A stretch of DNA of 64,000 nt from Metridium senile (taxonomy: Eukaryota > Cnidaria > Anthozoa > Actiniaria > Metridiidae): positions 21,620,375 through 21,684,374 of the forward strand of contig OX459098.1 in NCBI GenBank assembly GCA_949775045.1, written 5' to 3'. Within the stretch, counting starts at the first letter, position 1, and the number at the start of each line of letters is the position of its first letter. The notes under the pieces are model-generated. The model was not told the origin of the DNA, did no database searches, and saw only the letters and a list, made by a program, of their open reading frames with translations. The translations under genes were made by a program, and so were the position numbers. Of the stretch, positions 1,991-64,000 are shown one piece after another.

Positions 1991-2243
1991 GTGTTTATAT
2001 TATCTACAATTTTAGTTAGTGAATGCAATGTATAATTGATGATTTATGGTGAAAATGAATAAGATGACGAGAAAATGAATATAAAAATGATAATTTAAAG
2101 TGAAAATGAAAGTGACGTATATTCGGGAAAATACCAATAGTGTCAGGCCTCCTCGGCCTGAATTCCGAGAACTAGCATGTAACAGAACAGTCGAGAACAT
2201 TTCCAGGACCAACAAGTTTAATAACTAGTTGTTGTTTTCCACA

Positions 2244-14026
<11,783 letters not shown>

Positions 14027-17060: not shown

Positions 17061-19431
17061 ATAATAATAATATGATTATAATATTTTATACATGATGTTC
17101 AATAAATATGTTCAAAATGTATATGTTCAAAATGAGCACATATTATCGAAACATTAAAACCTATTCCTTACTATTTTGTAAAATATTGCGGCGAGTTTAG
17201 ATACCGAAACAGCTAAAAGAACAATAGGCTAAAACAAAAACTTTCTATTTTAGTAACTTGAGGAAAAGCGATAGTCAGCCGCGGCCGAAGTGATTAAATC
17301 AAAGCGGCTAAGAGGGGAAAAAGGAATATATTACCATATCAAAAAGCTATTTATAGAAAGCTGATGTTCAAAATATATATATCAACAATATTGAAATCTA
17401 TAAAGGAAATCTTTTCGTGTTAACATTTAGAGGCATCTGGGAAAGCGCGGAACGATTAAACACTAAAAGGGCGTGTCATACCTAGAGGATAGCAGCGAAA
17501 TATCCTTGAATTTTATGAGATGACTGAGCAATTAATGGTTTTCGTTTCGAAATTTTATTAGATACGGAAGAATTAATTATAAAGAAATTTTATAGCCATA
17601 AACAAGTGCCGGCCCTACCAATTAGGGAGACTCGCACTCATTACCTCTAATGATTTTAAAACTCATCGATCATTTTACTACATATATCAAATCGTTTCCT
17701 ACCTTAAACGATAAACATTCAGAGTTAATCGACACTGCACTACATATATAAGTTATTGTCGTAATCTTTGTCTTAGCGGTATTGAGGTAAAGTTTATTGT
17801 TAATGAGGTTAACCCAGAGGGTTGAACGAGAAACGTTGCTGGTGTAACCAACTGAAAAAATACATTTTAACGAACACATCATCAGATAAGAATCTTTACA
17901 TCCCTTCCAATTGATATCTTAATAGCTTTTCTTGCAGTCGAATGAACATGCGGTTGTGAAGGTGGCTTTTGTGGTTTTCACAGATTTTTTAGAATAATAT
18001 TCAAATAAATAAATAAAATATTTGATAACTTGTGTTTGCCGAGTAACAGTTTGTTTTTTAGTTTTAAAACTTCACCTGAGTTGAAGCTTTGTAAACGGCT
18101 CAGTAAGAGTTCTTCAGGAGGACTTCGTATACAGCGCAACGCGCATTAGCGTGGCCACCTAATTAAAGTTTTGTACAATTTAACCAATTTGAAAGCGAGA
18201 ATTTGACTTTAGTTTAAAAGACGCCGAGTGACAAACACTAAATACTTTGAAATATATGAAGTATAAGTGGCTGAAAAATCTCCCAGGAATATTAAATTTG
18301 AAAAAGCTAGGTGTAGCAAAATTACAATATAAAAAGAGAAACGTTTGAACTCTATAAGCTATCTTGCGAGGGTAAGGCGCGTTATGCTGTAACTTCGGCA
18401 GGAAAAATTAGTTTTAATTAATTTGCTAATACTTAAAATGCAAGATTCACTGAGCATCCTTTTAGAGCTTTTACTTTAGTTTATAAATTGTATTCTACAT
18501 TACTTTGAAATTCAAGCCATCGATCGTGGAGGTCTTAATAATTCATACCTGGTATCCAATGTGAGTTTAAGCATATGACAAGCTAAAAAAACATCTCAAA
18601 TCTCCCGCTTCGTTTGAAAGCAAAACCTTGAATGGTTCTCATTTTCATGATCACCCACATCGTAAGCAGCTGGTTCGACAAATCAATATTCGATTATTAT
18701 AAGATTAAGATCGAATTCAAGTTTTTTTTTATTATTTACATAAATATATATTATATCTATCTTTTTTTTGGATTTCTTTTATTATACACATTACATTAGA
18801 AACTCAGAAAAAACTTTACTAGCTGAGGGTCTGTACCATAATTACTGATTATATATATTTAATTATTTTTCCATTCATACTAATCTATAGACATTATTTG
18901 TATCGCAGTTTTACAATGTTTTTTTATTATAATGAATACAGATATCTGTCTTCATCATATGGTAAATACAAATCATTTATGAATCGTGGTACAAAACACC
19001 ACATGGCCTCGTATGTTAAAAATATGTTTAAACCAATTCTCAGCATTAACCGCAATATCTCATTTCTCACATTTTTTCCATAATTCCCCTCGTATATCCC
19101 GAACTTTTTCAGCTATTTTCCCGTCGAGCTCCCTATTTTCCTTTCCCCATATTTTCCTTTCCCCATATTTTCCTTTCCCCATATTTTCCTTGTTGTTTCT
19201 CCCATTCCCTTGACTATTGTCCCTGTTGTTTCTCGTCTTCCTCCCATCTCCTTTACTATTTTCCCTGTTGTTTGTCCCATCTCCATGACTAATTTCCATC
19301 TTCATCCTTTCTATTCAGTTCTCTCAGTTCCTTTTTTGTCCATTATTTTCTTGTTGGCTTCTTTTTAGTTTATTTAGATATGTCAATGTTGTGTCGATCT
19401 GTTTTCATATCGTAGTGTTTTTTTATAGACA
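17061..19431. other. Gene-free AT-rich interval
   Basis: No frame with splice signals or family resemblance was found. At 17610-17650 a block reading AATTAGGGAGACTCGCACTC resembles one at 44730-44760, so it is probably a dispersed repeat. From 19130 to 19190 TTTTCCTTTCCCCATA is repeated three times in tandem, within a pyrimidine-rich stretch. Confidence 0.5.
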
Positions 19432-20157
19432 ATGAAGCTGCTGTTCGTTGTGTTTGGTGCAATTCTTGTAACTGGCCCAGTTGTATCCCATCCCATCGAT
19501 ATACGGGACCCACTACCAGGCCAAATTGACGTCACATGTACGGGATGTTACGTAGAAGCTGCTAATGGAAAGTGCCAATATGATACCTCCATTTGTCCAG
19601 ATAAAAAAGACGCACTTCCTGGGAAAACCAGCGCTAGATGCAACGGTTGCTACATAGAAGATGCTAATGGAAGGTGCCAATATGATACCTCCATTTGTCC
19701 AGATAAAAAAGACGCACTTCCTGGGAAAACCAGCGCTAGATGCAACGGTTGCTACATAGAAGATGCTAATGGAAGGTGCCAATATGATACCTCCATTTGT
19801 CCTGATAAAAAAGACGCACTTCCTGGGAAAACCGGCGCTAGATGCAACGGTTGCTACATAGAAGATGCTAATGGAAGGTGCCAATATGATACCTCCATTT
19901 GTCCAGATAAAAGAGACGCACTGCCTGGCCAAACCAGCGCTAGATGCAACGGTTGCTACATAGAAGATGCTAATGGAAGGTGCCAATATGATAGCTCCAT
20001 TTGTCCAGATAAAAAAGACGCACTTCCTGGGAAAACTAGCGCTAGATGCAACGGTTGCTACATAGAAGATGCTAATGGAAGGTGCCAATACGATACCTCC
20101 ATTTGTCCAGATAAAAAAGACGCACTTCCTGGCCAAACCAGCGATTATGTCAGATAA
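19432..20157 (+). CDS. Secreted cysteine-rich tandem-repeat precursor (241 aa)
   Basis: Single coding exon. Residues 1-19 form a signal peptide (hydrophobic LLFVVFGAILVTGPVVS, then HP). The rest is six units of 34 residues (102 nt). Units 2-6 are almost identical; unit 1 is more diverged (CTGCYVEAANGKC). Each has four cysteines spaced C-x2-C-x8-C-x6-C and ends with PDKK or PDKR before DALPG. The dibasic ends could be processing sites releasing about 34-residue peptides with two disulfides, or the protein could act as an uncleaved multidomain chain. I do not recognise the family: it is not galaxin, ShK, Kazal or EGF by spacing. An immune, venom, matrix or peptide-precursor role are all open. 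An acceptor-like TTTTTTTATAG just before the ATG suggests an upstream non-coding exon. ATTAAA at 20252 may be the polyadenylation signal. Confidence 0.85.
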   Translation: MKLLFVVFGAILVTGPVVSHPIDIRDPLPGQIDVTCTGCYVEAANGKCQYDTSICPDKKDALPGKTSARCNGCYIEDANGRCQYDTSICPDKKDALPGKTSARCNGCYIEDANGRCQYDTSICPDKKDALPGKTGARCNGCYIEDANGRCQYDTSICPDKRDALPGQTSARCNGCYIEDANGRCQYDSSICPDKKDALPGKTSARCNGCYIEDANGRCQYDTSICPDKKDALPGQTSDYVR

Positions 20158-41325: not shown

Positions 41326-41437
41326 TATACAATATAATATATGTTTTATAAGCAAAAATGCTTATTACCATACAATTATTACCATATAATTTGATGTCAT
41401 TTTCTTACATTTATCCAGGATATAGCTAAAGTAGACC

Positions 41438-43561
41438 ATGGCCTTGAGAACAACCACTAGTACTGGACGAAGACCTTTGTTTTTTCTCTTCTCAATCTGC
41501 ATGTTACTTGTCGTCGTGTTTACATCGTTACTAATGGCAACTAACTATGGATCGTCTCTGAAACATCTACCAACAGTACAAGGGATTTACGAAAAGATGC
41601 CGTTCTTTAATTCAAGTTATTTACGTCTTTACGCGAAAACATCATGTCCTTCATGTCCTACACCTGCACCGTGTCCTACATCGTCTCAATCTACTTGTAA
41701 ACCAGGGAAAAGCCAGCCTTGTCCAACGTCTAAACCGTGTCCTCTACGGTACACAGATTTTGGATACTTTAAACGAGAATTGAACAGGCAGTTGTTAGAC
41801 ATACATCGCGAGATGAAAATATCTATTGAAAGTAAGAAAGCGCCATCTACGCAGGCGTTGTTGAAACTAGAAGGCATTATGGAACAACTAGACAAGAGTT
41901 ATAAGGCCAGTAAAATCATAGAGGCAGAACAACCATCGTATCCAAATATAGACAATCAAACACTAGATGTTTGTCCTGAGAAATATCTTGGTGAGAAAAA
42001 AGGCTACCCGTTCTTTGAAAGAGGTTGGATAACAACAAACTGTACGAACGTCAAACCACTTCCTTCTGTAATCACAATCCTGTTAAACACTATAGAATAC
42101 CCTGAACCTTACGAGGACAAAGTTAACCTTGTATTACGTGGTATTGACCAAACCTATCCTGGTGTACAGGTTTATTTAGCTCCTAAAAACGAAAAGATCA
42201 GAGAGATATGTCGTCGTTATCCTAATGTTAAAGCAATAGACGTAAACCATACTAGTCGTCTGACCATGGGTAAAGTATGGAATCAACTTGTTGCCATGGT
42301 AAAGACACCATATACCTTGATAGGACGTGATCTTGTTCATTTCACTTGGACTGCAAGAATACGAAGACAAATCCGAATGATCACTGAGATCGACTACGTA
42401 GGAATTGTTGGAGGATCTTATCGTAATTGGACAGGTCACTGGAGGAATGGCTGTCGACAAACACGAAAGAAAAACTACGTTCTTGAGTATCAAGAAGGTT
42501 ACCACTATTCCACTCGTTCATGTATGTTTTGTGACGACTTGGAAGGTCCTTTTGTCGCTAAAACACACATCTTAAAAACGGCAGAGTTTGGTGAAAAACT
42601 ACCAAGTGAAGTTGTTTTTGAAGATTTTTTTCTCAAAGTCTATGATATGGGTTATTTAACGATGTCCTGTCCCGATGCCATGTACTTTGCCAATGATTAC
42701 TACAGAGATGTGAAGAGAAACGTTCGAAAAGTTTGGCAATTCTTCTCAGCCAAATGGAAGTTTGTACGAATCTTGCTTCCTGATGGAATCATGCATAGTT
42801 TCTCTTGTGAAGACATCTCTTATCGTTGTGCTACTAAAGTAACTAAATACGCTACTATGCCTGCGTGTTGTCTTGAGGAATACGGCAAAGCCATGAAATT
42901 TCTCTACGACCTATGTCGAGAGCACAACATTCATTTTGAGTTAGACTCTGGTTCTGTGTTGGGTGCGGTCAAGATGGGTGGTCTAATGCCTTATGACGTA
43001 GATGGGGATATATCTTTACTCTCTAATAACTTCTCCATTCTCTATTCTTTCCAAGAATACATACGCCAAAAAGGATTTAATTTAAACGCGTACTCCCGTC
43101 CGAAATGGGATGCAAATGGCACCATTATAAAAAGTAAAAAAGGTTATTTAATGTTTCATAGTCCGCACATTTACACTGAAGTCTACGGTTGGCCGACATT
43201 GTCAGGTTTCTTGTTTCTGCCAGCAGAGCTTCGTGACCCGGTGTATTTTACTAAAGTACTTGTTAATGGCTACTGGATTAGCTCGTCGTTTTGTCCTGGT
43301 CTTTTTGCTCGTAATCGTTATGGACTTGATGTTCTCAAACACTCTCAAAGCTGGCTACAGGTCGGAGGAATGGGTTCTAGTTGGAGTAGATATAAAGCAG
43401 GTCGATTCCTGGGTTGTAAGTATCCAAAATTCCACGCGTGCTTGGACAAGTTCCCCGCAGACGGGAACATTGCTTTCCAGGTTCCTTCTCGAACAGAACA
43501 GACAATGAATAACTTAGAATCAACTATGATAACACCAACTACAGCACACGATAATACATAG
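41438..43561 (+). CDS. LicD/FKRP-like type II Golgi membrane protein, intronless, 707 aa
   Basis: One uninterrupted frame. Residues about 13-35 form a signal-anchor helix (PLFFLFSICMLLVVVFTSLL), giving type II topology. A cysteine/proline-rich stem follows (about 67-105; repeated CPT and PCP), then a helical linker. Residues about 205-400 resemble a GT-A-like fold region with RGIDQTYPG and VYLAPKNEK, as in the stem domain of FKRP. Residues about 450-690 are the LicD-type nucleotidyl/phospho-sugar transferase domain: PACCLEEY, then ELDSGSVLGAVKMGGLMPYD (from about residue 500) and DVDGD metal-binding acids. Human FKRP transfers ribitol-phosphate onto alpha-dystroglycan in the Golgi; a similar phospho-alditol or phosphocholine transfer is inferred here. 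The absence of introns among intron-rich neighbours suggests a retrocopy origin or an intronless clade. An AG just upstream (41418) could end a 5' UTR intron. Confidence 0.85.
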   Translation: MALRTTTSTGRRPLFFLFSICMLLVVVFTSLLMATNYGSSLKHLPTVQGIYEKMPFFNSSYLRLYAKTSCPSCPTPAPCPTSSQSTCKPGKSQPCPTSKPCPLRYTDFGYFKRELNRQLLDIHREMKISIESKKAPSTQALLKLEGIMEQLDKSYKASKIIEAEQPSYPNIDNQTLDVCPEKYLGEKKGYPFFERGWITTNCTNVKPLPSVITILLNTIEYPEPYEDKVNLVLRGIDQTYPGVQVYLAPKNEKIREICRRYPNVKAIDVNHTSRLTMGKVWNQLVAMVKTPYTLIGRDLVHFTWTARIRRQIRMITEIDYVGIVGGSYRNWTGHWRNGCRQTRKKNYVLEYQEGYHYSTRSCMFCDDLEGPFVAKTHILKTAEFGEKLPSEVVFEDFFLKVYDMGYLTMSCPDAMYFANDYYRDVKRNVRKVWQFFSAKWKFVRILLPDGIMHSFSCEDISYRCATKVTKYATMPACCLEEYGKAMKFLYDLCREHNIHFELDSGSVLGAVKMGGLMPYDVDGDISLLSNNFSILYSFQEYIRQKGFNLNAYSRPKWDANGTIIKSKKGYLMFHSPHIYTEVYGWPTLSGFLFLPAELRDPVYFTKVLVNGYWISSSFCPGLFARNRYGLDVLKHSQSWLQVGGMGSSWSRYKAGRFLGCKYPKFHACLDKFPADGNIAFQVPSRTEQTMNNLESTMITPTTAHDNT

Positions 43562-46617: not shown

Positions 46618-49600
46618 CTGACAAAGACAAAACCAAAATATGTTAAAGCTACATGATCAACATGGCCGAAAGCTGGTTAAAAAAAAAACGACAAACTTAG
46701 CATAGAAAATTTAGCTTGTGCGTCATTCCGTTCCAGAGAAGTAGATACTAAAGCATTGTAAACCCTTTAAATAAACTAATTCTCTACTTTCACAAAAACA
46801 ATAATGCTTTCTGTTTTTTTTTAGGAGGAGGAGGAGGAGGAGGAGGAGGAGGAGGAGGAGGAGGAGGAGGAGGGGGGGGGGGATGGGGGGATTAGTTATT
46901 GTAATCAGTTCAAATCAAACAAATTGTGGGTGCAATTTATGCGGGCTCATACTAGACTTCAAGTAGGTCTAAAGTATATCTGTATCTAAAGTATATCGAG
47001 AATTCGGCTTGTTTGAAGAGGCGCGACATAACCATAGGAGGAGGAGGAGGAGGGGGGGGGGGGGGGGGGATGGGGGGATTAGTTATTGTAATCAGTTCAA
47101 ATCAAACAAATTGTGGGTGCAATTTATGCGGGCTCATACTAGACTTCAAGTAGGTCTAAAGTATATCTGTATCTAAAGTATATCGAGAATTCGGCTTGTT
47201 TGAAGAGGCGCGACATAACCATATCGACAAAATATATTAATTGAGTGGCCAGAGTGCCGTTCGCAATACAAGTATAACCAAAGTATACTTTACACCTACT
47301 TTAGATCGCCAGTGTGACCACCCCCCCCCCCCCCCCCCCCCAAAAAGACAGAAGGCATTATGGTTATGTGTAAGTAGAGAATGGACTCAACTTCACTTAT
47401 CAGTAAGGATTGAAGAAGATTGTAGTTGTGTTGATGATAATAATTGTAGAAATTTATTTTACCTTTTTTCGAGTGCAAAAACATCTCAACTCCCGACACA
47501 AACTTCTGAACAGCTTTCTTTTCCACGTACGTCATCTGGACGTGTTTTAGCAAACCAAACCTTTGTCGATACGTCACTCCTAATGCTGTTGCTAGGATAC
47601 TTCCAGTAACAAAGGCGTCTGCGGGCTCACTGAGTGCTAAGTGGTCACCAGGACATATGTAAACATCAATATTGCCGTTAACAAGCAACGACCATGCGTC
47701 GTCAGAACTTTCTTGGAGAAGTTTGACCGGGGAATACCGCTGGTCAGCACTTTTCAAATAAGTCAGTGGTCCCTGGTAATAGACCTTTGAAGAGAAAACA
47801 AATGGACTCAAATTATTATAGCTATAGTTTATCTGGAATATCATTTATTGATTGTTTGTTGCTCACCGCTGCTGGCTTCCATTCGCGATGTTTGACCGCA
47901 GCCAGTTGGTTGTCCTGGTGTACTGATTTGTTCAGCTTTCTAATATCATACAGTGGAATGTCAAGCTCATGCGCTCTGTCCTGTAAGAAATCTATGATAC
48001 CGTCTTGTGTCGTCTCCCTCCGTTTGCTATCGTAGTCCTGTGGAGTCATTTTGAGTGTTTGTGAAGCAAGTTTGGAGAGGACTTGTTCAAATGTAGCCTG
48101 AAAAAAACCCGAAAATCGAAATTAGAAAATTGTTTCGTTCGTTCGTCTGTCTGTCCGTCCGTCCGTCCGTCCGTCCGTCCGTCCGTCTGTCTGTGTGCTT
48201 GTTTGTCTGTCTGTCTGTTTGCTTGTTTGTTCGTTCGTTTGATTGTTCGTTCGTTTGTCTGTCTGTTTGCTTGTTTGTTAGTTCGTTTGATTGTTCGTTC
48301 GTTTGTCTTTTTGTCTGTCAGCTTGTTTGTCTGTCTGATTGTTTTTCTTTTGTTTGTTTGTTTGAATATCTGCTTGTTTGTGAGTTTCTTCGTTTGACTG
48401 TTTGTTTGTCTGATTGTTTGTTGCATGTGTGGTAGTTTGTTGTCAATATATCAGTTTTCTTCGATTATAATACACTGTACAAAATTACTCGATTCTGATT
48501 GGACGAGAGGAATACAATTAAATCGCAGAGTACCAATTAGTTTTTCAGTATATTATAAATAAAAAATCGCACGATCTTCTCGTACAATTTGTAATTAATA
48601 GATATTCGTGATGTTTTGAAAGTTATCAAATTGGACTCGCCTAGAAGGCTCGTCCAATTTTGAAAACTTTCAAATCATCACTCGTACCTATTAATTACAA
48701 ATTGTACTTAATATCATGCGATTTCCTAGACTAAATGTCCAAACCTGGAAGAGTCTTTCCATGAGCTGCTCTAGCTTCGTTCCTCCAAACAGTATTTCAA
48801 GACGAGCTGCAGCCGAACGATTCGAGATCTCCCATGGAAAAGTATCAATCATAGCCACAAAGGCAACATCTTCTCCTTGTTCTTGTAATACGCTGGCCAT
48901 TTCAAAGGCTATCAGTCCACCAAACGACTGTCCTCCAAGGAAATACGGGCCGTGTCTTTGTAGTTGTTTGATCATCTTTACGTAGCTCTTAGCAAGCTGG
49001 CGAACACTTCTACTGTCTCCAGACATTGTTGGGTCGGTGTAGCCGATGGCATAAAACGAAATCAAGGACTAAAACAAACAGATTGCTTTAGTTAGAGCTG
49101 TTTGTTCAATTGGTAACATTTAATGAGCACAATATTTGCATCTTTTTAAAACCTGTTTGCAGTGTATTAATAATAGTATATAATAACAATAGTTGGACCT
49201 ACTTGTGTTTTAAATGCTGCTGATATTGATGTATATAATAATAGTATATAATAACAGTAGTTGGACCTACTTGTGTTTTAAATGCTGCTGATATTGGTGT
49301 ATATGATAATAGTTTATAATAACAGTAGTTGGACCTACTTGTGTTTTAAATGCTGCTGATATTGGTGTATATAATAATAGTATATAATAACAGTAGTTGG
49401 ACCTACTTGTGTTTTAAATGCTGCTGATATTGGTGTATATAATAATAGTATATAATAACAGTAGTTGGACCTACTTGTGTTTTAAATGCTGCTGATATTG
49501 GTGTATATAATAATAGTTTATAATAACAGTAGTTGGACCTACTTGTGTTTTAAATGCTGCTGATATTGGTGTATATAATAATAGTATATAATAACAGTAG

Positions 49601-52600
49601 TTGGACCTACTTGTGTTTTAAATGCTGCTGATATTGGTGTATATAATAATAGTATATAATAACAGTAGTTGGACCTACTTGTGTTTTAAATGCTGCTGAT
49701 ATTGGTGTATATAATAATAGTTTATAATAACAGTAGTTGGACCTACTTGTGTTTTAAATGCTGCTGATATTGGTGTATATAATAATAGTTTATAATAACA
49801 GTAGTTGGACCTACTTGTGTTTTAAATGCTGCTGATATTGGTGTATTAATAATAGTATATAATAACTGTAGTTGGACCTACTTGTGTTTTAAATGCTGCT
49901 GATATTGGTGTATATAATAATAGTTTATAATAACAGTAGTTGGACCTACTTGTGTTTTAAATGCTGCTGATATTGGTGTATATAATAATAGTATATAATA
50001 ACAGTAGTTGGACCTACTTGTGTTTTAAATGCTGCTGATATTGGTGTATATAATAATAGTTTATAATAACAGTAGTTGGACCTACTTGTGTTTTAAATGC
50101 TGCTGATATTGGTGTATTAATAATAGTATATAATAACTGTAGTTGGACCTACTTGTGTTTTAAATGCTGCTGATATTGGTACCAGGTTCATAGCATACCG
50201 TCCTGCAGGATGGACACCGAAGAACATAATACTTGCTCCTTCTGGTGCATACAGTGGCATAACCTGATATGTAGCGGTTGGACAGCTTGTATCTTTGGGA
50301 TACTCTCGTTCAGCAGACTGTGTCTCTACCTGCACCGTCTCACTGTCTGGTACATTCTCGTCAGATGTTTTACCAGGTTTGTTAGCATCAGTTTGGTTTG
50401 TTTGCCTTTTGGAGTTCATTTTGATAAGTATGCCCTGGATAATCTTGTTTATTGTTGTGTCTGGCTGCATGAAGTAAAACACCTAGAAATGATTCGGTAA
50501 AAAATACTTAATGAAATTGCTGTATGTTGCAAACTTTGATTAATGCAGATTTTCTCCAATTTTGTTATCTTTTATAAAGATTTTTTATGGCAAAGAAATT
50601 ACTCTTAAAGATCTTAAAGGTCTCAAAACTGCCTTTCAATTTTGTAAATACATAACTATAGAATAAAACAGTTACTAACAACATATCATTGCTAACTAAC
50701 CTCAAACGAGACTTGAAGTGTGGCTTCCAGTTGCATTTTAAACGTCAAAGCAAAGAAAGAATCCAAGCCTTGAGCATAAAGACTTGTTTTCATGTCGATC
50801 TCTGTTGCCGATACACTAAGCCAAGAGGCAATCAGTTCAGTAACGAACTCCTCGACCATGCCTTCCTTCTTCGTGTGATCACTTTCCATCAAGATCTTGG
50901 GCCCGAGGGATGTCAGATCTTTCTCTGATTGCTGAGCTTCTAGTTCTTGCTTGATTGATTCAAATCGTCTTGAGTTACTAATTCCTGTCGATGCATCAAG
51001 TCGCGACCAGTCAGCGTCAAAAAGACTAACGCCGGTCGTTAGGGGCTGCTTTATGAGAACTTCTTCCATGAACTCTATGGCTGCAAAAATAACAATAATG
51101 GTGTAGATGATGATGATGATGATGATAATAATGATAACAACGATAACAGCAGTGGTGAAGATGATGGTGATGATGATAATAATGATGACAACGATAACAG
51201 CAGTGGTGAAGATGATGGTGATGATAATGATGATAACGATAACAGCAGTGGCGAAGATGATGGTATTGATAATAATGATGATGACAACGATAACAGCAGT
51301 GGTGAATCGAAGATGATGGTGATTCGATGATAATAATGACGGTGACAACGATAACAGCAGTGGTGAAGATGATGATAATAGTGATGATAACGATAACAGC
51401 AGTGGTGGAGATGATAATGATAATGATAACAACGTTGATGATGATAGTGACGATGGCAGTGATTTAGGTGATGGTAGTGATAAATCGATAAATAAGTTAA
51501 AGTGTTCAAATTGCATACAGTCTGAAGTAATATTTCAAATCCTACCTTGATTAGCATCCAGCAATCGATATCCAGTATGTGAGAGTAAGGTAGCAATATT
51601 CTCCTGTCTTTGTAAGACTCCGGCTCCCTTGATTGGTCCCCAGTTGATTGACAGTCCAGGAAGACCAAGTACTTGTCGTCTGTAACAAGCAAGACTGTCC
51701 AGGAAGCAATTTGCAGCTGAATAAGCAGACTGACCTGGATTGCCAAATAACGAAGCAATGGACGAGAACATGACGAAGAAATCCAGATCCATGTTTAAAC
51801 TCATTTGATGCAGAAGATAGGCGCCTAATAAACAAATAATGACCATCAAATAAATGCATTTTACCACAATGGGTATTTTTGTACAGCTCTTTCTTCAAAT
51901 ATATCAATGTTTAGATTAGCGACAATTCGAGCATAAAAAAGAAAAGTCGATACCTTAAGCCAAAATTAAGCCAAAATAGCTGGTTGCAATAACTTTGTCC
52001 ACCTCAGATATATATAAATATATATGAAAAACATATTAGAAATTATGGGATGGCTTAGCTAATATTTTTTTTCTGATGGACTATTATCAGGGCTATATGA
52101 AAAAAATATTAGCTAAGCCATCCCATAATTGGTAATATGTTTTTGATTTATATTTATATATATATTTATATATCTGAGGTGGACAATAATATAAAGGTTT
52201 TAATCTTAAAAACATGGACACAGGCATGTATTACTAGTTATATCTATATTTAGATGAGGGTTTCTCTCACCTTTGACTTTGGGAGCCATAACTTGATAAA
52301 AACTTTCTCGTTCAATTAGAGGGATAAGCTGATCCCTTAAGACCATAGCCGTCAGTACAATTCCTGCCATACTGGGTAACTTAGCAAGCTCATTGGTGTT
52401 CATCTTATTCATTTGTACTGGATCTGATACATCGACCTGTAAGACTTTTATCCTAGCACCAGTCTCTTTCTCAAGCAGCGATATCTCATCCAGTTTTGAT
52501 TGTGAAGGAGTGGAACGAGCTACTAGTACAATTGTGCCCGCACCTAGGAGAAATTGCAATAAAATATTTAATCATAAAAGTTGAATTAAACAACAAATGA

Positions 52601-55600
52601 AAGAAAATTTATTTGCGCGGGGCCCACTGTCCTTTATTATCATTCTGTTAGCTACAATGCCAAGCTACTAAGCAAAATCCCCAGATTATTTTCCTCACTC
52701 GCTACACCGTAACATGTTTTAAATCAGCACTGATCATGAATTTTCGAGTTCTTCAAGAATTAATATGTTATTTATCATACAAAAATCCATAAGAAACAAT
52801 ACGATAGGTGCTGTCTCTACTACAATTTACTCCGCAACTAAAACTACTAATAAACTATTTTTGGCGTACAAAAGTGCTTACCATTGAAAGCCATCCAACG
52901 AGCGACTTCAAAACCAAATCCTCTTACACCTCCAGCTATCATGTATGTACGATCGTGTTTCAGCTTGTACTGATCCATTCCTACAGGCAGAACTTGACCA
53001 ACTATTGGCGTAGTACTCGCTTTGAACGAAAACGAGTGAAACGACAAGCTCCTTGTTAACCGTGGCGATTCTTTTATCGATTGCTCGGTGGTTAAGACAT
53101 CGGCAATACTTGTTTCTTGTTGTGGGATTTGTAGTATGTTCTTCAAGCTATCTGTGGATGTAAGAAGCTGCCAACATGTCGACCAAAGTGACTGGTACTT
53201 CCCTGGTGAATCCATGATATCAGTATAGTCGATGCGTTGACATGAAATGCTCTTATTGGATGGTATGATCACGTGGTTATTGACTGTGTTACCAAGAAGG
53301 ACTATCTTTCCACCAGGCTTCAAAAGTTGGCAGCTTTTTCTGGTGCTGTTTGGGAGAGGTTCGTAGAAAAATATGGCTGCTTCTGCTTGTTGCGCTAACT
53401 GGGTTGTGAGGTCTGAAATATGAGTACAATAAAGGATTATATATTATATGTCGGTATGCATATAGTCACAGTATTCAAAGGGGGGTTATTTCGATAACTA
53501 ATCAGCCCCCCTTGAGCATAAGTATTTTGTTCTATGCATTGTTGAATATCGAGCGGCATACCAAGCATTTTTATCCAATCGTAATCACCATTACAATCAT
53601 CATAACCAGGATCACTATGATCTTCATCTCTATCAAGCTTCTATTATCCTGCATCACCATTTTTAATCATAATCATTATCGGCGTCACCACCATCATAAT
53701 CATCGCCAACAGTATCATAACCGTCATCATTACCATTATGATCGTTATCATAATCAATGTCATCGATCATTGCCATTATCATCGTCATCATAATCATAGT
53801 CATCACTGCTATTATCATGGTCATCTCATAGTCGTTGCCATTATCATCGTCATCATAATCATTGCCATTATCATCGTCATCATAATCATAGTCATCACTG
53901 CTATTATCATGGTCATCTCATAGTCGTTGCCATTATCATCGTCATCATAATCATTGCTATTATCATCGTCATCATAATCATAGTCATCACTGCTATTATC
54001 ATGGTCATCTCATAGTCGTTGCCATTATCATCGTCATCATAATCATTGCCATTATCATCGTCATCATAATCATAGTCATCACTGCTATTATCATGGTCAT
54101 CTCATAGTCGTTGCCATTATCATCGTCATCATAATCATTGCCATTATCATCGTCATCATAATCATAGTCATCACTGCTATTATCATGGTCATCTCATAGT
54201 CGTTGCCATTATCATCGTCATCATAATCATAGTCATCACTGCTATTATCATGGTCATCTCATAGTCGTTGCCATTATCACCGTCATCATAATCATAGTCA
54301 TCACTGCTATTATCATGGTCATCTCATAGTCGTTGCCATTATTACCGTCATCATAATCATAGTCATCACTGCTATTATCATGGTCATCTCATAGTCGTTG
54401 CCATTATCACCGTCATCATAATCATAGTCATCACTGCTATTATCATGGTCATCTCATAGTCGTTGCCATTATTACCGTCATCATAATCATAGTCATCACT
54501 GCTATTATCATGGTCATCTCATAGTCGTTGCCATTATTACCGTCATCATAATCATAGTCATCACTGCTATTATCATGGTCATCTCATAGTCGTTGCCATT
54601 ATCACCGTCATCATAATCATAGTCATCACTGCTATTATCATGGTCATCTCATAGTCGTTGCCATTATCATCGTCATCATAATCATAGTCATTATTGCTCT
54701 TATAATCGTCATAATAATCATCATTGCTATTATCATCGTCATCATAATCATAGTCATTATTGCTCTTATAATCGTCATAATAATCATCATTGCTATTATC
54801 ATCGTCATCATAATTATAGTCATTATTGCTCTTATCATCATAATCATACATTGCTATTATCACCGTCATAATCATTGCTATTACCATCGTCATCATAATC
54901 ATAGTCATTATTGTTCTTATTATCGTCATAATAATTATCATTGCTATTATCATCTTCATCATAATTATAGTCATTATTGCTCTTATCATCATAGTCATTG
55001 CTATTATTATCGTAATCATAATCAATTCTATTATCATCCGTCATAGTCATCATTGCTATTAAAATCGTCATAATCATTGCTATTATTGATTTCATCAGCG
55101 ATGAATCGTCATCGCCGTCACCACCATCATAATCATCTTAATCACTGCCATTATCATCGTCATCATAATCGTTATACCTGATAAGTGTGCATCTGTAACC
55201 AACAAAGCGCCTTGTTCTTTAAGACGACGTTTAGAATCTTCAACATGAGGGTCTGAGGAAGTACATAACACAGAATAACCCATGGCCTTTGCTGCTAATA
55301 ATCCAGCAAGACCAAGATCTTTATTCGCCTCGTGAATAATCACAAGCGCATCCTTAGATCCATTAGCAGAAACAGCTTGTTCAAGCGCATAGTAAGCGAG
55401 CGGGAGACAGCTGGATAGTGAGGCAGCTTGTTGCAGGCTTACTTCGTTGGGCTTCCTGATGGCTTCATTTTCTCTGACTTGGAGGATGTTGCTTAGGCGG
55501 TTGGTTCTTGTGAAGCCAAACACAAGCTCTCCATTAGAAAACATTCCGTCTTTTCCAGAGTTTATTACTGACCCAGAGTATCCTATGAAAATACTGGTAC

Positions 55601-58600
55601 TCGTTTTCAGTCGCGTTATGATCTCGTCAGGAATCCAGAAATTGTTTACACAGACTTTGATGTTTCCTTCAATATTGCTTGAGCTCTGAGTCGATTTTCT
55701 TAAGCAAATTTCTTCAGTATTGGGGTTAAGAGCCAAGTATACAGGCCTAGAAAGTAGTTGTGGGTTGATCAGTTCTTCTTCAGTGATTGGATTTGTTCCT
55801 GGAGTAGCTCTTGTAAAACGGTTAACATATCGTTTATCGCCTCGCAGCACAACTTCATCATTCCAGTCTTCCTGGAAAACAATTAATACGCCATTATTGA
55901 GTGCGTGCTAGTTAAAAACGCAACATATTGCTGTGGGATTGGCATTATTGCCCAAAACATTTTCACATAATTTAAAAGCACAAAGAGCAATATGATAGGT
56001 AATTTCAATTACATGTAGTTTATTAGACTCCAAGCTCCTGAGTATAAATAACAAATTAATGATGTCTGAACATCTAAAGCCCATAAGCGGGTACATTTCG
56101 AATTCGAGCACATCACTGACTAGACGTTAGCCCAATCCCTCTCAAATATAGAGGATATATAACTCACCTCAACAGTTATTTCTTTTACCAGTAACTGTAT
56201 TTCAGAGTCATCTAATGCTCCTAGATCAACACTGATCGTTCTGATGTTCTCAAACTCTAGACGAGCTGTCCTGCAGAGCCCCCAAACATTAGACCCCCAT
56301 GGAATCATGTCCTCCTTCTCACCAGCAACGTACTGAGTGCAACGACTGACGACAACTAGCTTACAAGTAGCACTACTAGATGACTGTACATCTTCCAAGA
56401 ACTTTAACGCTTCTAACGACCCCATAAAGCTAGACTCCTGACATCGTTCGTAATTCTCTGGGGTGAAGGGAAAAGAAGAGGTCTCGACTGGCCAAAAGTT
56501 GACGATTGTTAACTTGGTGCATGTTTTAGTCTCGTCGAGTACGGTTTTGAGATCGTTGACCAGGTCTTTAATGGCGGAAACATCGTTAGGTAGTTTAATA
56601 GATAAAATCTAAAGATAAAACATCAGCACCTATTGAATATACATTACTATACTCCAATTAATTATAAGGGCCACAACAATAGATAAATAATACAATAGTG
56701 CCTCTGGTTATATAGGGTTGGTAAAAGGGAAAAATATCAGCCGTGATCCGTGAAATCATCTTTACCTGTGATCCGTGATTTACAGATTTTCAATGTCTGA
56801 TTTTTTTATTACAAAATCAGCCCTACGTGAAAACGTGACAGCTTGTCATATATATAATGAGATGTGAGTGTTTGAATTCTTATTGTTTGTATATTTGTCA
56901 GATTTGTGAAAATAACTCTGTGATCCGTGAAAGTATGAAAACACTGCCCGTGATTCGTGATTGGTATCAGCTATTCAGTCCTCACCCCGTATTTATAGAT
57001 TACAGTGAGGTTCTTTCTTCATTAAAGTCTGTCTGATGATCGTGTAAGCGTGTATATACACAGCAATTTTCAGAAATTATGACCCCATAAATATATATAT
57101 CGGTTGCATTGTGGGTTATGTTTATTTACCCATTTGAGTGCTTTGCTGAGCTAACGTATCCAAAATATATATGTTGTGGGGTTCAGAATTTCTGCAAATT
57201 AATCTATATACAATCATATATAATTATGAGCTCCTGAGCTCAAGTTTATAGCTGTATCGGGTGCATTCTGGGAAGGATATATATGCAATTATTGATTACT
57301 AAATATTATTACCTTTTCCTTGTACACTTGAGAAAGTACATCAACAAACGAGCTGCTAGTTCCAGTCGTGTCTTCCATCACCACAATAACGCCGTCAGAC
57401 AGGTCAGCGGGTTTACTTTCAAGTCGGTTTTCAACCCAATTAGTTTCATAGATGACATCAGAAAGCTTTGGTGACCGAATCATGTTAGCTATCTCGGTGA
57501 ACTGGAACTCATCAATAGTGACGTAGACCTTTCCAAATGAATCGACCAATCGCATACTATATGTCCTTGCATCCCCGGATGTTGTCTTGGCCACGTGACA
57601 GTATGTTTTACGTGGGATGTTGGGATCAATTACTGAGAAACATTTAATTCCAATTGGAACGGCTGGTGAAGCTTCGTCGTTTCCTTCCTCATCATCTTCG
57701 CACGCTATGGAAGTCTAAGATAATAAAATAAAGTTTATGAAATGATGATGAACATCTCGGTAATCTAAGCAATTGCATTAGAAAAGCGAGAACAAATTCA
57801 ACGGCATTCGAACTCATGATTATACTGCATTACTACCAGTATGGCGGTCGAACGACAAGCCAAGCTGTCCACCTTATTCCCTTGTTTTGTCCGCACTCTA
57901 GTGCTGTACCACATTCAATTCTTTTGGCAGTCTACATATCTCAACAAACAATCTAAAGCCAAATCATCTTCCGCTTAGTTTGTAAATTGGAGCAAATATG
58001 GCAGCACGGTCCTCGCTCTTCCATCAAACGACGATCTCATCATTCGCATACTTCTCTGTGGCGATATTCATCCACTATCTGGTCCTGAAGTTTTACACTA
58101 GAATCTCACGTTTCAAAGATGCCTTATGATCTACCAAATGCTGGAGTCAATATTGTGCCTATACTACTCTAAATAAGAAAAATCTTAAGTTATATATAAA
58201 CGTCAATCAAAGTACGGACAGTCAGTTTAACGGTCGTTCAAAAATGTTATAGTTACGGTTGTTTAAAAACCTATGAGGGAAACGCCTTAACAAAGAGCAG
58301 GAACAAGCTGTAAAAGTTCTCTTTTCTTCTCCTCTGCCTTCCCCTTCTATTTTCCCTCCTCCTCAATCCCCCAGAGTTGCCACGCAGGCTAGACATTGCT
58401 AGTCATAGTGATTTATACAATTTACACATTACCTGGAAACAGGCATCAACAAAAGCAGGATGGATTATGTACAGTGGGATTTCTGGTTGGAAAGGACCAT
58501 CCATTTCTAGCATACACACAGCCTTGTTGTCTTGTCGCCATATCTTTCGCACTAGACAGTAACATGGACCATAGTCAAAGCCAACTTTTACCGTCAAATG

Positions 58601-61600
58601 TCGAAACGTCGATACAGGTACTTCGGTCATGTTGGAAATGACTTCTTTTAGGACATCGTTGATTACATCTTCGTCTTTGCTCTGGTTTTCTGCAGGTACA
58701 AAGCATAGTTGTTAGTATTTATTAATAGTTGCATAGTTGATATTGCTTTATAGTGTTAGTACTAACACGTTTTCGTATATATATGTGATGTCTTTTCTAT
58801 GACCTATCTATAGTTTTATCGATAATTTACAATTTATAACGCCCTACATGTTAATGTATTGAGCACTTTACCAACATTATTGGCTCATTGTGCAGTATAT
58901 ATATGTATACAGTGAAGAAATCTGAACTACTTAGTCTTAATATCAGATAGTTAATATATTTCCAGTTAATCATTTTATTGCATTGTCCGAGGAATCCAAG
59001 TGTCCTTTTAACATTATCTATCTAAACCATTTGGATTTATTGAAAACACTAATCATCTAATAGGTTTCAAGGCTAGTTGTTGTGGAATAATTCATGGATA
59101 TGAAGTTTTAATTGTAAACTATAAGTACCTTGTGAAGTATGTAAGCAAACAAGCAAACAGTTTGACGACTCAACAAAGATACTTCCTTTAGCAAGGACCA
59201 TGTCTGTGCCATCATCTTGTACATTACAAACAGAGAAGTCACCTTCTGTGTTGTTTTGTTTCATCTCTAACCTGAGCCTCAGCAATCGTACCTGGGATTC
59301 GGGTAATGTCAGAAGGTTGGTAAAGCGAACATCTTTTACCTCTATCCCCCACGTACGCTGGAATCTTTCTGCCGCCATTGCAATCGCCATTTCTACATAT
59401 GCTGATCCTGGAAGAACTGGTCCTCCTTGAGTTAAAGCATGGTCTTTAAAAGTAGGGAAACGATGAAGATCTATTTCTGTTTCCCAGCACATAACGCCAG
59501 ATAATTGCTCCGTCAGTTTTACCTCTTTTAAGAAAGGGTGACACTTGTGGGATTGATCCTGTCGTGGTTCAAGTGACCGCACTGTTTTGGGCGGTGGCTG
59601 ATCTCTGTACCAGTAATCTATTTCTTTCCACGGGTAAGTCGGAAAGCGGACAAGTCTTCGTGGACCGTCGCCGTACATAGTTGACCAGTAAACAGGGTAA
59701 CCCATGGTATACAACCGGCACACTGTGTTCTTTAAGAACTCCTTGTGTTGAACAGGTACTTTTTGAGGTGGGAAGGTCGCCAAATAAGTAGTTGATTTGT
59801 TTGAGTCGGATTTCGTGGTGTTGGTTGCGATGTTGTGAAGGTAGTGCTTTAAGACTGGCTGCGGACTTATCTCAATGATGGTAGTGTGGCCGTCTTCGAC
59901 AGCGTGTGTCACAGCTTGGTAAAACAGCACAGGTTGTCGCATGTTTTTCCACCAGTATTGGTCTTCTAACTGCTTACGGAAGACCTTATCACCCAAAACT
60001 GTAGAGTACATCGGGATATGCATCATTTTGGGTTTAATCTTAAGGCCTTCGATATCTGCACACAATGGTGTTTTTACCGCATCGATGTACATGCTATGAA
60101 ACGCACGAGCAGTTGCCAGAACTTTCCAGAATACAGCTGGGTGATTTGTGCTGACATGGTTTCCTATGCATTCAATAGACTCTTTGTTACCAGAGATGGT
60201 GACATTACTCTGATCATTGACAGCTGCAATACACACTGTGTTGTCTAATTTCAAATCAATGATTAGATTTCGTGCTTCGTCTTTGGACATTCCAAGAGCT
60301 GCCATCGATCCCTCTGAAGAACACTTCTCATGCCATTTGGATCTTATCAAGACGATCTGTAGTGCCTCTTTAAGACTTAAAGCTCCACAACAACACGCGG
60401 CTGCAAGCTCTCCAAGACTATGACCTACTACAGCAGATGGATGGATGCCCCACGATTCCAGGAGCTTATAGGTGGCGTATTGTATGGCAAATGCAGCTGG
60501 TTGGCCAATAAGGTTACCCATGATCCTCTTTTTCTCGGGTGATGTTAGTTCTCTTATCAAGGACCAATCTTTTCCTAGATCCTTCAGTAGTATGTCAACG
60601 TCGTAGATGCTTTTATTGAACAAGGGTTCTCTTTCCATTAGCTCTTTTCCCATACCTTCCCAGTTTGCACCTTGTCCTCCAAACACAAATAGGAGACTTT
60701 GTTTGGTTGAGCTAGCATTACCAGATATAACTTGACTATCGGTTTTGTTGTTTGTGAATGCAGCTATGGAATCCGCAGCTTCATTTACAGTGCTGAACAC
60801 TAAACCAAGACGACTTTCATGGTGACTACGCCGTTCAGTGAGAGAGTATCCCAAATTGAGTTTAAATTCAGGATCATCCGGTTGTTCTCTTAGCCAAGAT
60901 TCAAAATGCTTTGCGAGATGTTTTAGGGAGTCCTCCGACTTTGCTGATAACGTTAAGATAAACGTGTTTTTGTTAGTTTCATGTTTGGGGGGATTCAACT
61001 GAGGACGCACTTCCTTGAGGATAGCATGTACATTGGAACCTCCATATCCAAAGGAATTAAGGCCTGCTATACGATAGCTACCGTCATTTTTGATCCACTT
61101 CTCACATGTTTCTTGGACAACCATTCCTTTCTCAGAAAGCTTCAATTTGGGATTCAAGTTGTGTACGTTGACAGTTGGTAGAAATATTTCATTCTTTATC
61201 ATGAAGGCAATTTTGATCAATCCAGCAAGACCTGAGGCAGACTCTGTGTGATTCAGATTTGACTTTACTGATCCAACTCGAAGGATTCTGTGTTTCAACG
61301 CAGACCTATCACAGTATGTACTGGCGATTGATGTAGTTTCCACGACATCACCGATAGCTGTACCAGTTCCGTGGGCCTCTACGTATTCGACACTCGACGC
61401 TGTGATACCAGCATCCTCAAGGACTGTCTTTACAAGTTCAGCCTGTGTTTTTGGGCTTGGGGCAGTGATTGGGGTTGCATTTTGTCCATCATTATTCATT
61501 CCACAAGCAAGAATCTCACAATAGATCTCATCGTTGTCAGCTATAGAGACTAAGGTAGGTTTAAGAATTACAGCTGCAAAGCCTTCGCCTCGTCCATAAC

Positions 61601-64000
61601 CATCAGCCGATTCATCAAAGCTTTTACAGCGCCCATCCGGTGCAAGAAGACCTCCAATGCTGAATGTCATGTGTACTGACTCGTCGAGTATAATATTCGG
61701 TGCACAGACTATTGCCACATCACATTCACCGTTAGTAAGGCAGCACTGAGCGATCTTTAGCGCTGTTAACGACGAGGAGCATGCCGTATCAACAGCTAGA
61801 CTTGGTCCTGTCAAGTTCAGGCAGAATGAGACACGGTTTGCAACGATTGAAGTGGTTATACCTGTGGAGTAAAACTGATCCATGTTGACACGGTTGTCGA
61901 CATTCATTATACGGCCTCCATAATCAAGATTCATAACACCCACAAATACGCCAGTTTTACACTTTTGTAGATCTTCAAGGCGAAGCCCTGCATCTTCTAT
62001 CGCTTCGTAGACAACTTGAAGAAGAATTCTTTGCTGTGGATCCATCGCAGGAGCTTCTTGAGGAGAAATCTTAAAGAACTCGGCATCAAAACCTTGTATG
62101 TTTTCTAGAAATGCTCCACCGACTGTACAAATTCTGCTCTTGACAAAACGTTTAGGATGGTAAACATTTTGGAATAGTTCATACTCCTCGGAGCGATTCG
62201 ATGGAAAACGACTAACAGCACATGTACCATTTAAAAGCATTTCCAGAAACTTATCCTTGTTCCTGGCTTGAGGGAATCTACAACCTATACCAATAATACA
62301 GACAGTTGGATGGCGTTGTTTGTTGAAAGTTTCTTGTGTTTCTGTCACTATTTCTATTTCCTGGTTTCTTTTTATAGCTTTCATATCATACCATTCTTCA
62401 ATCGCCATGTATTCCATTAATGTTTCTGCAGGTTTACTTGAGACTAGAATTATTGTTGGTAAAAGTGCGAGGCAATGAAACAGTGCCAGTACAAAAAACG
62501 TTGGAAGAACACATAAGAAGATGGTAGATAAAAATGGAAATATGAATGAAAGGGAAATGGAACATGCGATGGAAATGAGAACTTCAAAGAGAATTGCTGG
62601 ACCTGCTGCTTTCAATGAAGACTCAGTTCTCTTCTCTGCAGTGACATCAGCAGTTACTGATTGTTCTTGTAGGATTCGTATGCTTAGTTGCAATTCCCAC
62701 AGTAAACCAAGGAACAAGCAATAGAACGACACAGGGTTTAATGGAATATTCCAAACCAGTACCAGGACGATCATTTCCTCCACATGAAGAATAAACGTTA
62801 TCACAAGTAGAATTCCAATTCGTATGTTTGCCATCAGAGGTTGGGGGCATAACAAGACAGCTAGTCCAACAACGAGTAAGATTTTAAACGATTCACGTTT
62901 AAATGTATCTATCATGTCGAGTACCAGGAATCTAGAAGACGCGGGTAAAGCAGAGAGTTGTGCTTCCGTGCTAAAAGCCTTAACGTCTGTCCTTAGTGAA
63001 CGAAGTTTCTTTACATCATTTGCAAAACTTCCATCCAACCTTATAAACAGATGAAAGCGTGATAAGCTGATAACTTCTGTGTTGTTTTTGCTTTCAAACA
63101 CAATGTCTTTCTTGTAAAGAGCGTTCTGGGGAACCAAGAAGAACTTCTGCAGACATGATGTAAATTGATCTCCTTGACAAACGATTCCATTGACGTTCGA
63201 CCACGATAACAACTGTACAAGCCATGACGACATGTTTCTTGTACTGTAACTCTTAAGGCTTAATTGATTTGTTATTCTTTTGATGCTATTTTGTACTGAT
63301 GTTTTTTTATAGTCAGTGGAACCCAACATTAGAATGCTTACATCGATGTCTTGGAAATAATTTAGTTCAATGGATTTAAAACTTGATACACGAGTCGATT
63401 TAAGGAGTGCAGTGTTATCCTGATATGCTTGGCTAAGACTGTATCGTTTATGCAAGTAAACACAGCCAGCGATGATTCCAAGTGTGAGAACCAATACTAA
63501 AATCTTAGATATTCGTCTTGTAAGAAACTTGCCGTATTTTTCAAAAAACGTTCCCTGGGTTTCCTGGGTTTGTACTTCGTCCTGCATTGCGACCTTTCCG
63601 TTGAATCCAAAGTATCCCTGGTCAAACGATGAGGGATGTTTTTGCAGCAGCAGATAACTACATGCAAGAAGAAAAGGGTAGAAAAAGAAATAGCGCAGAG
63701 GAACAGCAAATAAAGCAACTAGGAACGCATCCTTGATGCCTGTGAAGGATGTATGAAGAGCAAGACCAAATACTACAACATCAACAAGTACACTTGTTGT
63801 GACCATAAGGCCAACTTTTGAAGTACAACCAGAGATGCGATGCTTTATAGAAAGAACATTCATCTGATTCTCTAGCTCAAAGACAACTATCAAAACATCC
63901 ACAATACCCCTGCCAACAAGAAATACCAGTATGACAATGGTCGCATATGAGAACGATGCACCAGCTGCAAACCCTAGTGACAATGAAGACAAAGTACATA
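45882..64000 (-). CDS. Patched/RND transporter - type I polyketide synthase fusion (partial, N-terminus beyond window)
   Basis: Minus-strand exons, 5' to 3': 64000-59129, 58689-58433, 57714-57313, 56608-56168, 55871-55178, 53412-52882, 52543-52271, 51824-51546, 51080-50701, 50482-50153, 49068-48745, 48097-47867, 47784-47463. Two tentative exons follow: 46617-46480 and 46117-45882 (or ending at a donor near 45918). Every junction among the first 13 exons preserves frame, giving more than 3100 residues. Order: nine membrane helices of an RND/Patched-type domain, ketosynthase, malonyl-type acyltransferase, dehydratase, structural pseudo-KR, degenerate enoylreductase, ketoreductase, acyl carrier protein, thioesterase. 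The layout matches animal FAS and FAS-like polyketide synthases, without a methyltransferase. The enzyme should make a polyketide or unusual fatty acid from malonyl-CoA and release it by hydrolysis. The membrane domain is the unexpected part. Confidence 0.9.
46826..47223. repeat. 190-base tandem duplication with GGA/poly-G tracts
   Basis: Copies at about 46850-47033 and 47052-47223 are essentially identical (GATTAGTTATTGTAATCAGT to GAGGCGCGACATAACCATA). Each is preceded by GGA repeats and a G run. A C run lies at 47321-47341. In the last-but-two intron of the polyketide synthase. Confidence 0.9.
48125..48425. repeat. GTCC/GTCTG/GTTTGTT simple repeat
   Basis: GTCC units at 48148-48188, then mixed TGTCTGTTTGCT and TCGTTCGTTTG units. 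In a thioesterase intron; frames across it are artefacts. Confidence 0.85.
48463..48727. mobile_element. MITE related to 11915-12175
   Basis: TACACTGTACAAAATTACTC then GATTCTGATTGGACGAGAGG are shared with the copy in the DUF4470/MYND gene. An internal hairpin reads GAAAGTTATCAAATTGGACT and its complement. It ends about 17 bases from the splice donor of exon 49068-48745. Confidence 0.75.
49190..50175 (-). repeat. 68-base minisatellite copying an exon end and its splice donor
   Basis: The word GGACCTACTTGTGTTTTAAA occurs 15 times between 49195 and 50145, period 68 (two units 66). On the coding strand each unit reads AGCAGCATTTAAAACACAA|GTAGGTCC. That is the last codons of exon 50482-50153 (PISAAFKTQ) plus its 5' splice site and about 40 intronic bases. 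The copy next to the exon is the functional one; the other 14 lie downstream in the intron. Confidence 0.92.
50701..51080 (-). other. Acyl carrier protein (ACP) domain
   Basis: One exon carries the KR C-terminal linker and a four-helix ACP with QGLDSFFALTFKMQLE. The serine of GLDS is the phosphopantetheine attachment site, so activation by a PPTase is needed. Confidence 0.9.
51095..51480. repeat. GATGATGATAAT-type minisatellite
   Basis: Units of about 40-51 bases built from GATGAT words and AACGATAACAGCAGTGGTGA repeat about seven times in the intron upstream of the ACP exon. Confidence 0.85.
51546..52543 (-). other. Ketoreductase (KR) catalytic half
   Basis: Exon 52543-52271 gives GAGTIVLVARSTPS and the QVDVSDP block. 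Exon 51824-51546 gives the catalytic set: VMFSSIASLFGNPGQSAYSA then AN, i.e. serine, tyrosine and asparagine of the short-chain reductase fold, and LSINWGPIKGAG. It should reduce beta-keto groups with NADPH. Confidence 0.88.
51996..52190. mobile_element. Foldback hairpin in KR intron
   Basis: TTGTCCACCTCAGATATATA and its complement form the ends; TGGGATGGCTTAGCTAATAT and its complement the inner arms, with a loop around 52075. Confidence 0.8.
52882..55871 (-). other. Enoylreductase-like domain with degenerate nucleotide site, then start of KR
   Basis: Exon 55871-55178 has the medium-chain reductase layout: VGYSG-like strand IFIGYSGSVINSGKDG, EVSLQQAASLSSCLPLAYYA, then ALVIIHEANKDLGLAGLLAA. 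In active ERs the last stretch reads HxAxGGVGxAA; here the two glycines are replaced by N and K. Exon 53412-52882 completes it (LLKPGGKIVLLG) and begins the KR with YMIAGGVRGFGFEVARWM, the KR NADPH motif with one glycine changed to arginine. Confidence 0.75.
53530..55165. repeat. 1.6-kb CAT-rich minisatellite in the ER intron
   Basis: A 65-base unit (GTCATCTCATAGTCGTTGCC and on) repeats through 53820-54680, with some longer units of about 92 bases. Related CATCATAATCAT units fill the rest. Local units are near-identical. The encoded YDDDDNSND-like frames are artefacts. Confidence 0.92.
56640..57300. other. Polyketide synthase intron with GTGATCCGTGA words
   Basis: GTGATCCGTGAAA-like words recur at about 56740, 56770, 56920 and 56950, within AT-rich sequence. 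No coding signal or clear inverted repeat was found. Confidence 0.4.
57313..59600 (-). other. Dehydratase (DH) domain, split over three exons
   Basis: The first half has DHALTQGGPVLPGSAYVEMA; the catalytic histidine codon is at about 59441-59443, with one more residue than usual between H and P. The second half, in exon 58689-58433, has HPAFVDACFQ with the catalytic aspartate. Exon 57714-57313 continues the double-hotdog fold (VPIGIKCFSV, VDSFGKVY) and ends in the YETNWV motif that usually follows a DH. It is expected to be active. Confidence 0.85.
59760..60705 (-). other. Malonyl-type acyltransferase (AT) domain
   Basis: Opens LLFVFGGQGANWEGMG. The nucleophile elbow is GHSLGE (about 60410-60425). 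The specificity motif reads RAFHS, where HAFH is typical of malonyl-CoA and YASH of methylmalonyl-CoA, so malonyl is predicted. Ends near ISPQPVLKHYL and the VPVQHKEF linker. Confidence 0.9.
60985..62310 (-). other. Ketosynthase (KS) domain
   Basis: Starts VCIIGIGCRFPQ. The active-site cysteine is in VDTACSSSL (codon at 61779-61781). The two histidines are in VEAHGTGTAIGD and KSNLNHTES; the second motif reads NHTE where most have GHTE. It is followed by a normal post-KS linker (FGYGGSNVHAIL). The sequence is closer in feel to polyketide synthases than to vertebrate FAS. It catalyses decarboxylative Claisen condensation. Confidence 0.93.
62315..64000 (-). other. RND/Patched-like membrane domain (sterol-sensing-domain half and C-terminal half)
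   Basis: From the window edge to about residue 560 of the visible frame. Nine hydrophobic helices correspond to TM4-TM12 of Patched/Dispatched-type RND proteins. TM4 contains FLVGRGIVDVLIVVFELE, aligning with the Patched GxGxDD segment but keeping only one aspartate. The RISGCTSKVGLMVTTSVLVD block matches the conserved loop and TM5. A lumenal domain of about 180 residues follows TM7, then TM8-TM12, with a GLLWELQLSIRI helix keeping one acidic residue. The paired acids used for proton or sodium coupling are therefore partly retained. The frame is open to the right edge, so TM1-TM3 and lumenal loop 1 should lie just outside. Confidence 0.8.

Follow-up and report, generated by a model that had tools for sequence, protein, structure and literature searches.

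A single open reading frame on the minus strand of the 64,000 bp window of Metridium senile DNA analysed here (contig OX459098.1) appears to encode an RND-type membrane protein fused in frame to a polyketide synthase (PKS), and sequence profiles support placing the N-terminal half in the eukaryotic NPC1/Patched/sterol-sensing branch of the RND proteins. The frame (59073-63998) runs for 1641 codons without a stop, passes through the join between the two halves and is still open at the end of the window; the chance of 540 codons without a stop, computed from the base composition of the exon, is about 10^-14.7. The most likely coding exon is 59129-63973, with an acceptor at TTGTCACTAG/GGTTTG and a donor at ACAAG/GTACTT (the slash marks the splice point). 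This agrees with the preliminary description, which had one exon with no stop carrying an RND-like half followed by ketosynthase (KS), acyltransferase (AT) and half of a dehydratase (DH); all three enzymatic domains are matched by Pfam families, and both the coordinates and the position of the join are right. The two halves are connected by a charged linker of 42 residues (62313-62438, minus strand) that leads from TM12 to the KS and is expected to be cytosolic. The same description held that the join has no stop, no repeat and no shift in composition, and the first two statements stand: the window contains no N, and the four short tandem arrays in 57000-64000 all lie away from the join. The third does not, because there is a small shift in GC content, with values at codon positions 1/2/3 of 0.467/0.338/0.356 upstream of the join versus 0.514/0.399/0.392 downstream, which could reflect the passage from a membrane to a soluble protein. 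The codon-usage correlation across the join is 0.82, a value that is non-discriminating since stretches taken as non-coding give 0.33 to 0.88. We considered whether two genes have been joined in the assembly, or fused recently into something non-functional. The basis of the analysis is one window of one assembly, but the join has no gap, repeat or stop, the 13-exon gene model described below is open throughout with most catalytic motifs kept, and only by luck would a false join fall both in frame and outside an intron; such an artefact is thus very improbable.

The RND half (62433-63971, minus strand) corresponds to the C-terminal three quarters of a Patched/NPC1-type transporter. The first ~510 residues of the frame contain hydrophobic segments that can be read from hydropathy as the nine helices TM4-TM12 claimed previously, although several segments in the raw list overlap or are merged, and the count of nine is therefore our own partition. 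The lumenal loop noted with them is also present; it is the second lumenal loop, with 186 residues between TM7 and TM8 and two N-glycosylation sequons (62898-63455, minus strand). The window thus holds nine helices and loop 2, and ends at base 64000 before any TM1-TM3 or loop 1; TM1-TM3 and the first large lumenal loop are presumably in exons upstream, beyond that base. Acidic residues are kept in TM4 (GRGIVD) and TM10 (GLLWE), and we take these, from an unaligned comparison with Patched and MmpL, to be the probable proton-relay positions of RND proteins. Other RND proteins of the branch have their acids in the same two helices (in Patched, GVGVDD in TM4 and GxGVEF in TM10), and we presume that the first acid of the usual TM4 Asp-Asp pair is a Val in this RND half, leaving one acid. 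A comparison of TM4-6 with TM10-12 for internal symmetry was negative (score 29, equalled or beaten by 269 of 300 shuffles), and AlphaFold2 prediction of the RND half from the single sequence without an alignment gave a mean pLDDT of 41.3 and a pTM of 0.24.

A profile search had been proposed as the check on the RND-type identity of the N-terminal half, and it upholds that identity through three profiles out of two libraries. The sterol-sensing domain PF12349 matches TM4-TM6 (63660-63956, minus strand; residues 6-104 of the translation of 63432-63971, profile positions 33-132 of 153), scoring 23.2 bits (6.7e-5) with the first 180 residues as query, 22.3 bits (1.4e-4) with the 1641-residue frame and 20.1 bits (6.3e-4) with 539 residues, such that the gathering score of 22.3 is narrowly reached with the first two queries and missed with the third. 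In the membrane part no other Pfam family attains its gathering score, and PF12349 does so in the 180- and 1641-residue scans but not in the 539-residue scan. PF02460 (Patched SSD) scores 21.1 bits (2.8e-4) on 180 residues and 17.4 bits (0.004) on 539 residues, both under its cut-off of 23. The NPC1 model TIGR00917 matches the end of loop 2 and most of TM8-TM12 (62541-63074, minus strand) at profile positions 992-1168 of 1204, with E-values of 5.8e-8 on 539 residues and 2.2e-5 with the second half alone; its 30.9 bits compare with a model cut-off of 1016.5, the query being only three quarters of a protein. Both the sterol-sensing and the NPC1 profiles thus lie in register with the helices, and three controls (one reversed sequence and two shuffles in which hydropathy is preserved locally) had no hits in the two libraries at E-values up to 10. 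Scanned alone, the second half of the RND part matched nothing in Pfam. The first 180 residues, scanned in the same way, did not return TIGR00917 and gave weak matches to the unrelated membrane families GPR180-TMEM145 (0.0057), succinate dehydrogenase cytochrome b556 (0.0093) and ABC permease (0.025).

The order of TM4-TM12, the TM7-TM8 lumenal loop and these weak in-register matches are shared with the NPC1/Patched/sterol-sensing RND proteins, but the sea anemone protein falls far under the NPC1 cut-off, has one TM4 acid and continues at its C-terminus into a PKS. Because the profile scores are low (17-31 bits) we regard it as a distant member of the RND superfamily and not as an NPC1 or Patched orthologue. 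A bacterial MMPL identity was considered and ruled out, there being no match to PF03176 at the thresholds used; for positive comparison, a true MMPL protein from a Crossiella locus scores 6.4e-109 against the MMPL family. No relatives of the RND half were found in viral contigs, or in plasmids at E up to 1, and a search of solved structures with a limit of E 1 gave a single sequence match, an entry named D3-threaded (E 0.081).

The PKS had been called complete, and this is correct for the gene model and not for the exon alone, with the remainder lying in 12 further exons that extend to 47463. The model of 13 exons, with GT-AG introns, has 3102 codons without a stop and a predicted domain order of RND half followed by KS-AT-DH-ER-KR-ACP-TE. 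Exon ends were picked by eye from consensus splice ends, continuing homology and retention of the frame, so the agreement in phase is partly by construction. All of the domains are on the minus strand. Within the first exon are the KS (61164-62306; motifs DTACSSS, EAHGTGT and NHTESASG; PF00109 5.3e-76, PF02801 1e-33), the AT (59829-60689; motifs GHSLGE and AFHS; PF00698 6e-61) and the N-terminal half of the DH (59229-59540; PF21089 6.9e-14), in which the catalytic His motif at 59406-59441 has one extra residue. The remainder of the DH (57313-58689; exons 58433-58689 and 57313-57714) is matched by PF14765 in the spliced model (4.3e-21). The segment that follows (52882-56608; exons 56168-56608, 55178-55871 and 52882-53412) includes sequence with no Pfam match of its own, a degenerate enoyl reductase (ER; motif at 55311-55343) and the start of the ketoreductase (KR). 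The ER is a weak zinc-type match, with PF00107 at 5.9e-6 and 26.7 bits, below the cut-off of 31.8. The KR (51546-53412; exons 52882-53412, 52271-52543 and 51546-51824; PF08659 1.3e-53) is followed by the acyl carrier protein (ACP; motif GLDS; PF00550 4e-6) together with the start of the thioesterase (50153-51080; exons 50701-51080 and 50153-50482), and by the thioesterase (TE) itself (47463-50482; exons 50153-50482, 48745-49068, 47867-48097 and 47463-47784; motifs GQSFGG and PGDH; PF00975 9.2e-21), for which the end of the last exon is provisional. Fifteen copies of a 68-base unit (49162-50180, minus strand, 97% matches) are also inside the gene; exon 50153-50482 ends, with its donor, inside the first copy, so that the donor sequence recurs along the intron in 15 places.

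In an alignment with the Deinococcus and Persicobacter PKSs, the KS Cys-His-His, AT Ser-His, KR Ser-Tyr and ACP Ser are all kept, and the TE Ser is aligned with that of the Persicobacter TE (the Deinococcus protein is without a TE). KS, AT and ACP with their active-site motifs are carried on one chain, as is the case for a type I modular PKS, and we take the AT motif AFHS to be typical of malonyl-CoA. A highly reducing PKS has working KR, DH and ER domains; here the KR motifs are kept, and the other two domains are altered. First, the ER has KDLG in place of the GGVG/GGLG of its relatives and is without their NFKD stretch, so the NADPH-binding glycines are lost and the domain is probably dead. 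Second, the DH keeps both its His and its Asp, with a distance from the His to the Pro-Gly of ten residues and not nine. A simple pattern for this spacing had 56 hits in the bacterial loci, 43 with nine residues and four with ten; we inspected six of the nine-residue hits and every ten-residue hit, and the latter resemble chance matches. With the extra DH residue and the loss of the ER glycines the reductive loop may be partly dead, and the altered DH and degenerate ER suggest that the product is likely to retain double bonds or hydroxyls.

The domain order is common to this gene and to bacterial cis-AT type I PKSs with KS-AT-DH-ER-KR-ACP (e.g. Deinococcus WP_239048595.1), with 35-36% identity over KS-AT; the four bacterial PKSs that were aligned have KS-AT identities of 33-35%. 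The Deinococcus PKS starts its KS at about residue 22 and is without a membrane part. The Metridium gene also differs from the bacterial cis-AT PKSs in its degenerate ER, in the TE after the ACP and in its introns. Animal fatty acid synthase and the FAS-like animal PKSs are single-module megasynthases with a similar domain order, but the match of the exon to solved fatty acid synthases (327-343 bits) is weaker than its match to bacterial PKSs such as CurL (497 bits).

We also considered whether the exon is shared by two transcripts, one for an RND protein and the other for a PKS, with the PKS message started at an internal promoter or produced by alternative splicing; the fused frame would then be a passive by-product. 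There are methionines after TM12 (MEYMAIEEWYDM), and in 62100-62700 a simple pattern picks out a single donor-like and a single acceptor-like site, which flank the join and are 333 bases apart. However, splicing between them would delete positions of the KS at which the alignment with four bacterial PKSs shows no variation, and with no stop between the halves any RND message through the exon reads into the KS. We therefore consider two separate products improbable.

A search of genome contigs gave no relative when the query was the KS-AT sequence by itself, and a second with a five-sequence alignment, covering the genomes of 84,980 species, matched at least 594 stretches, at least 592 of which encode a relative of the PKS. 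Hydrophobic segments in frame ahead of the KS were counted in the best 80 of these (at least 592) relatives, all 80 prokaryotic: 75 lack them, five have a single one and none reaches two, compared with eight in the Metridium window protein at the same threshold; the upstream sequence covered is at most 6 kb, five of the loci have fewer than 500 bases before the match, and two of the 80 frames reach the edge of the locus. A bacterial origin of the RND-PKS fusion was rejected on this sample, and the fusion was probably made in the eukaryote. The 80 loci together with four plasmid loci contain 27 open frames of at least 250 residues with at least five hydrophobic segments. Ten of the 27 were scanned and include one MMPL-family RND gene, at 2-1792 of locus L083 from Crossiella sp. 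S99.2, where it is upstream of the PKS and separate from it within one 14.6-kb stretch and is cut by the locus edge. This is the neighbourhood familiar from mycobacteria and speaks for the transporter reading given below, but with one such gene in the ten frames scanned, the bacterial neighbourhood gives little help.

A partnership of an RND transporter with a PKS has a precedent in the mycobacteria, in which MmpL exporters act next to PKSs (MmpL7-PpsE, MmpL3/Pks13), although there the two are separate proteins, and here PF03176 is unmatched. Judging from sequence, we give about an even chance to a model of a single gene for a membrane-embedded type I PKS, with the RND half transporting the lipid that the PKS produces. 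An N-terminal two-fold RND transporter of the NPC1/Patched/sterol-sensing branch would lead from TM12 through the short cytosolic linker into KS-AT-DH-ER-KR-ACP-TE. A KS-AT dimer on the cytosolic face would build the chain, probably from malonyl units, and the TE would free it beside the membrane, where the RND half would pick it from the cytosolic leaflet and carry it outward or into a lumen; a reactive or poorly soluble lipid would thereby never be free in the cytosol. Transport by the RND half, the PKS product as its cargo, the starter and extender units and the direction of movement are what we infer in this scheme, and the fusion makes it reasonable to suppose that synthesis and export would be coupled.

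The RND half could instead be a sterol-sensing anchor like that of HMG-CoA reductase, holding the PKS on the ER, with sterols or other lipids controlling its stability or activity and with no transport. HMG-CoA reductase is a biosynthetic enzyme with an N-terminal sterol-sensing domain, and the two proteins are alike in having a sterol-sensing membrane part N-terminal to a cytosolic lipid enzyme. Besides this precedent, the anchor is favoured by the sterol-sensing domain being the only Pfam family to reach its gathering score in the membrane part (the 539-residue scan excepted), and by the reduction of the TM4 acid pair to one acid. However, the membrane part of HMG-CoA reductase is only short and is without a full second RND half, and its enzyme is unrelated; the Metridium protein keeps the second half with its own lumenal loop, NPC1-like TM8-TM12 and the TM10 acid. 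We consider the anchor less likely, though a serious alternative, and prefer a pump to a mere sensor mainly because the retained loop 2 and TM7-TM12, which form the second RND half, would not be needed in an anchor. If the sensor were nevertheless correct, a further lipid enzyme would join HMG-CoA reductase in having a sterol-sensing membrane half.

For the preferred pump, we suggest, as a tentative proposal somewhat short of even confidence, a covalent synthase-exporter: an animal PKS with its own complete RND pump, in which the TE would pass each chain on to the pump within its own polypeptide; the pump would be paired too since PKSs work as dimers. What many eukaryotic Patched-like proteins carry is disputed, and if the fusion is real and exports its own product it would provide genetic evidence for an RND substrate, with the cargo named by the attached enzyme. 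It would also mean that the MmpL-PKS partnership of the mycobacteria arose a second time, as one eukaryotic polypeptide.

The window also contains microsatellites, an Rfam scan of it gave no match at gathering score, and four frames elsewhere in it are on the plus strand. One (2229-3086) encodes a DUF4470 protein (6.3e-23) and another (12416-14026) has six MYND zinc-finger matches (4.5e-55). A third (19429-20157) encodes a putative secreted protein that is built from repeats of a 34-residue cysteine unit (DALPGKTSARCNGCYIEDANGRCQYDTSICPDKK); its best Pfam match is at 3.1e-5, with no single stretch passing and none convincing. The fourth (41435-43561) is a single-exon frame of 708 residues with a LicD-type domain (PF04991, 3.5e-7) that we take to be FKRP-like.
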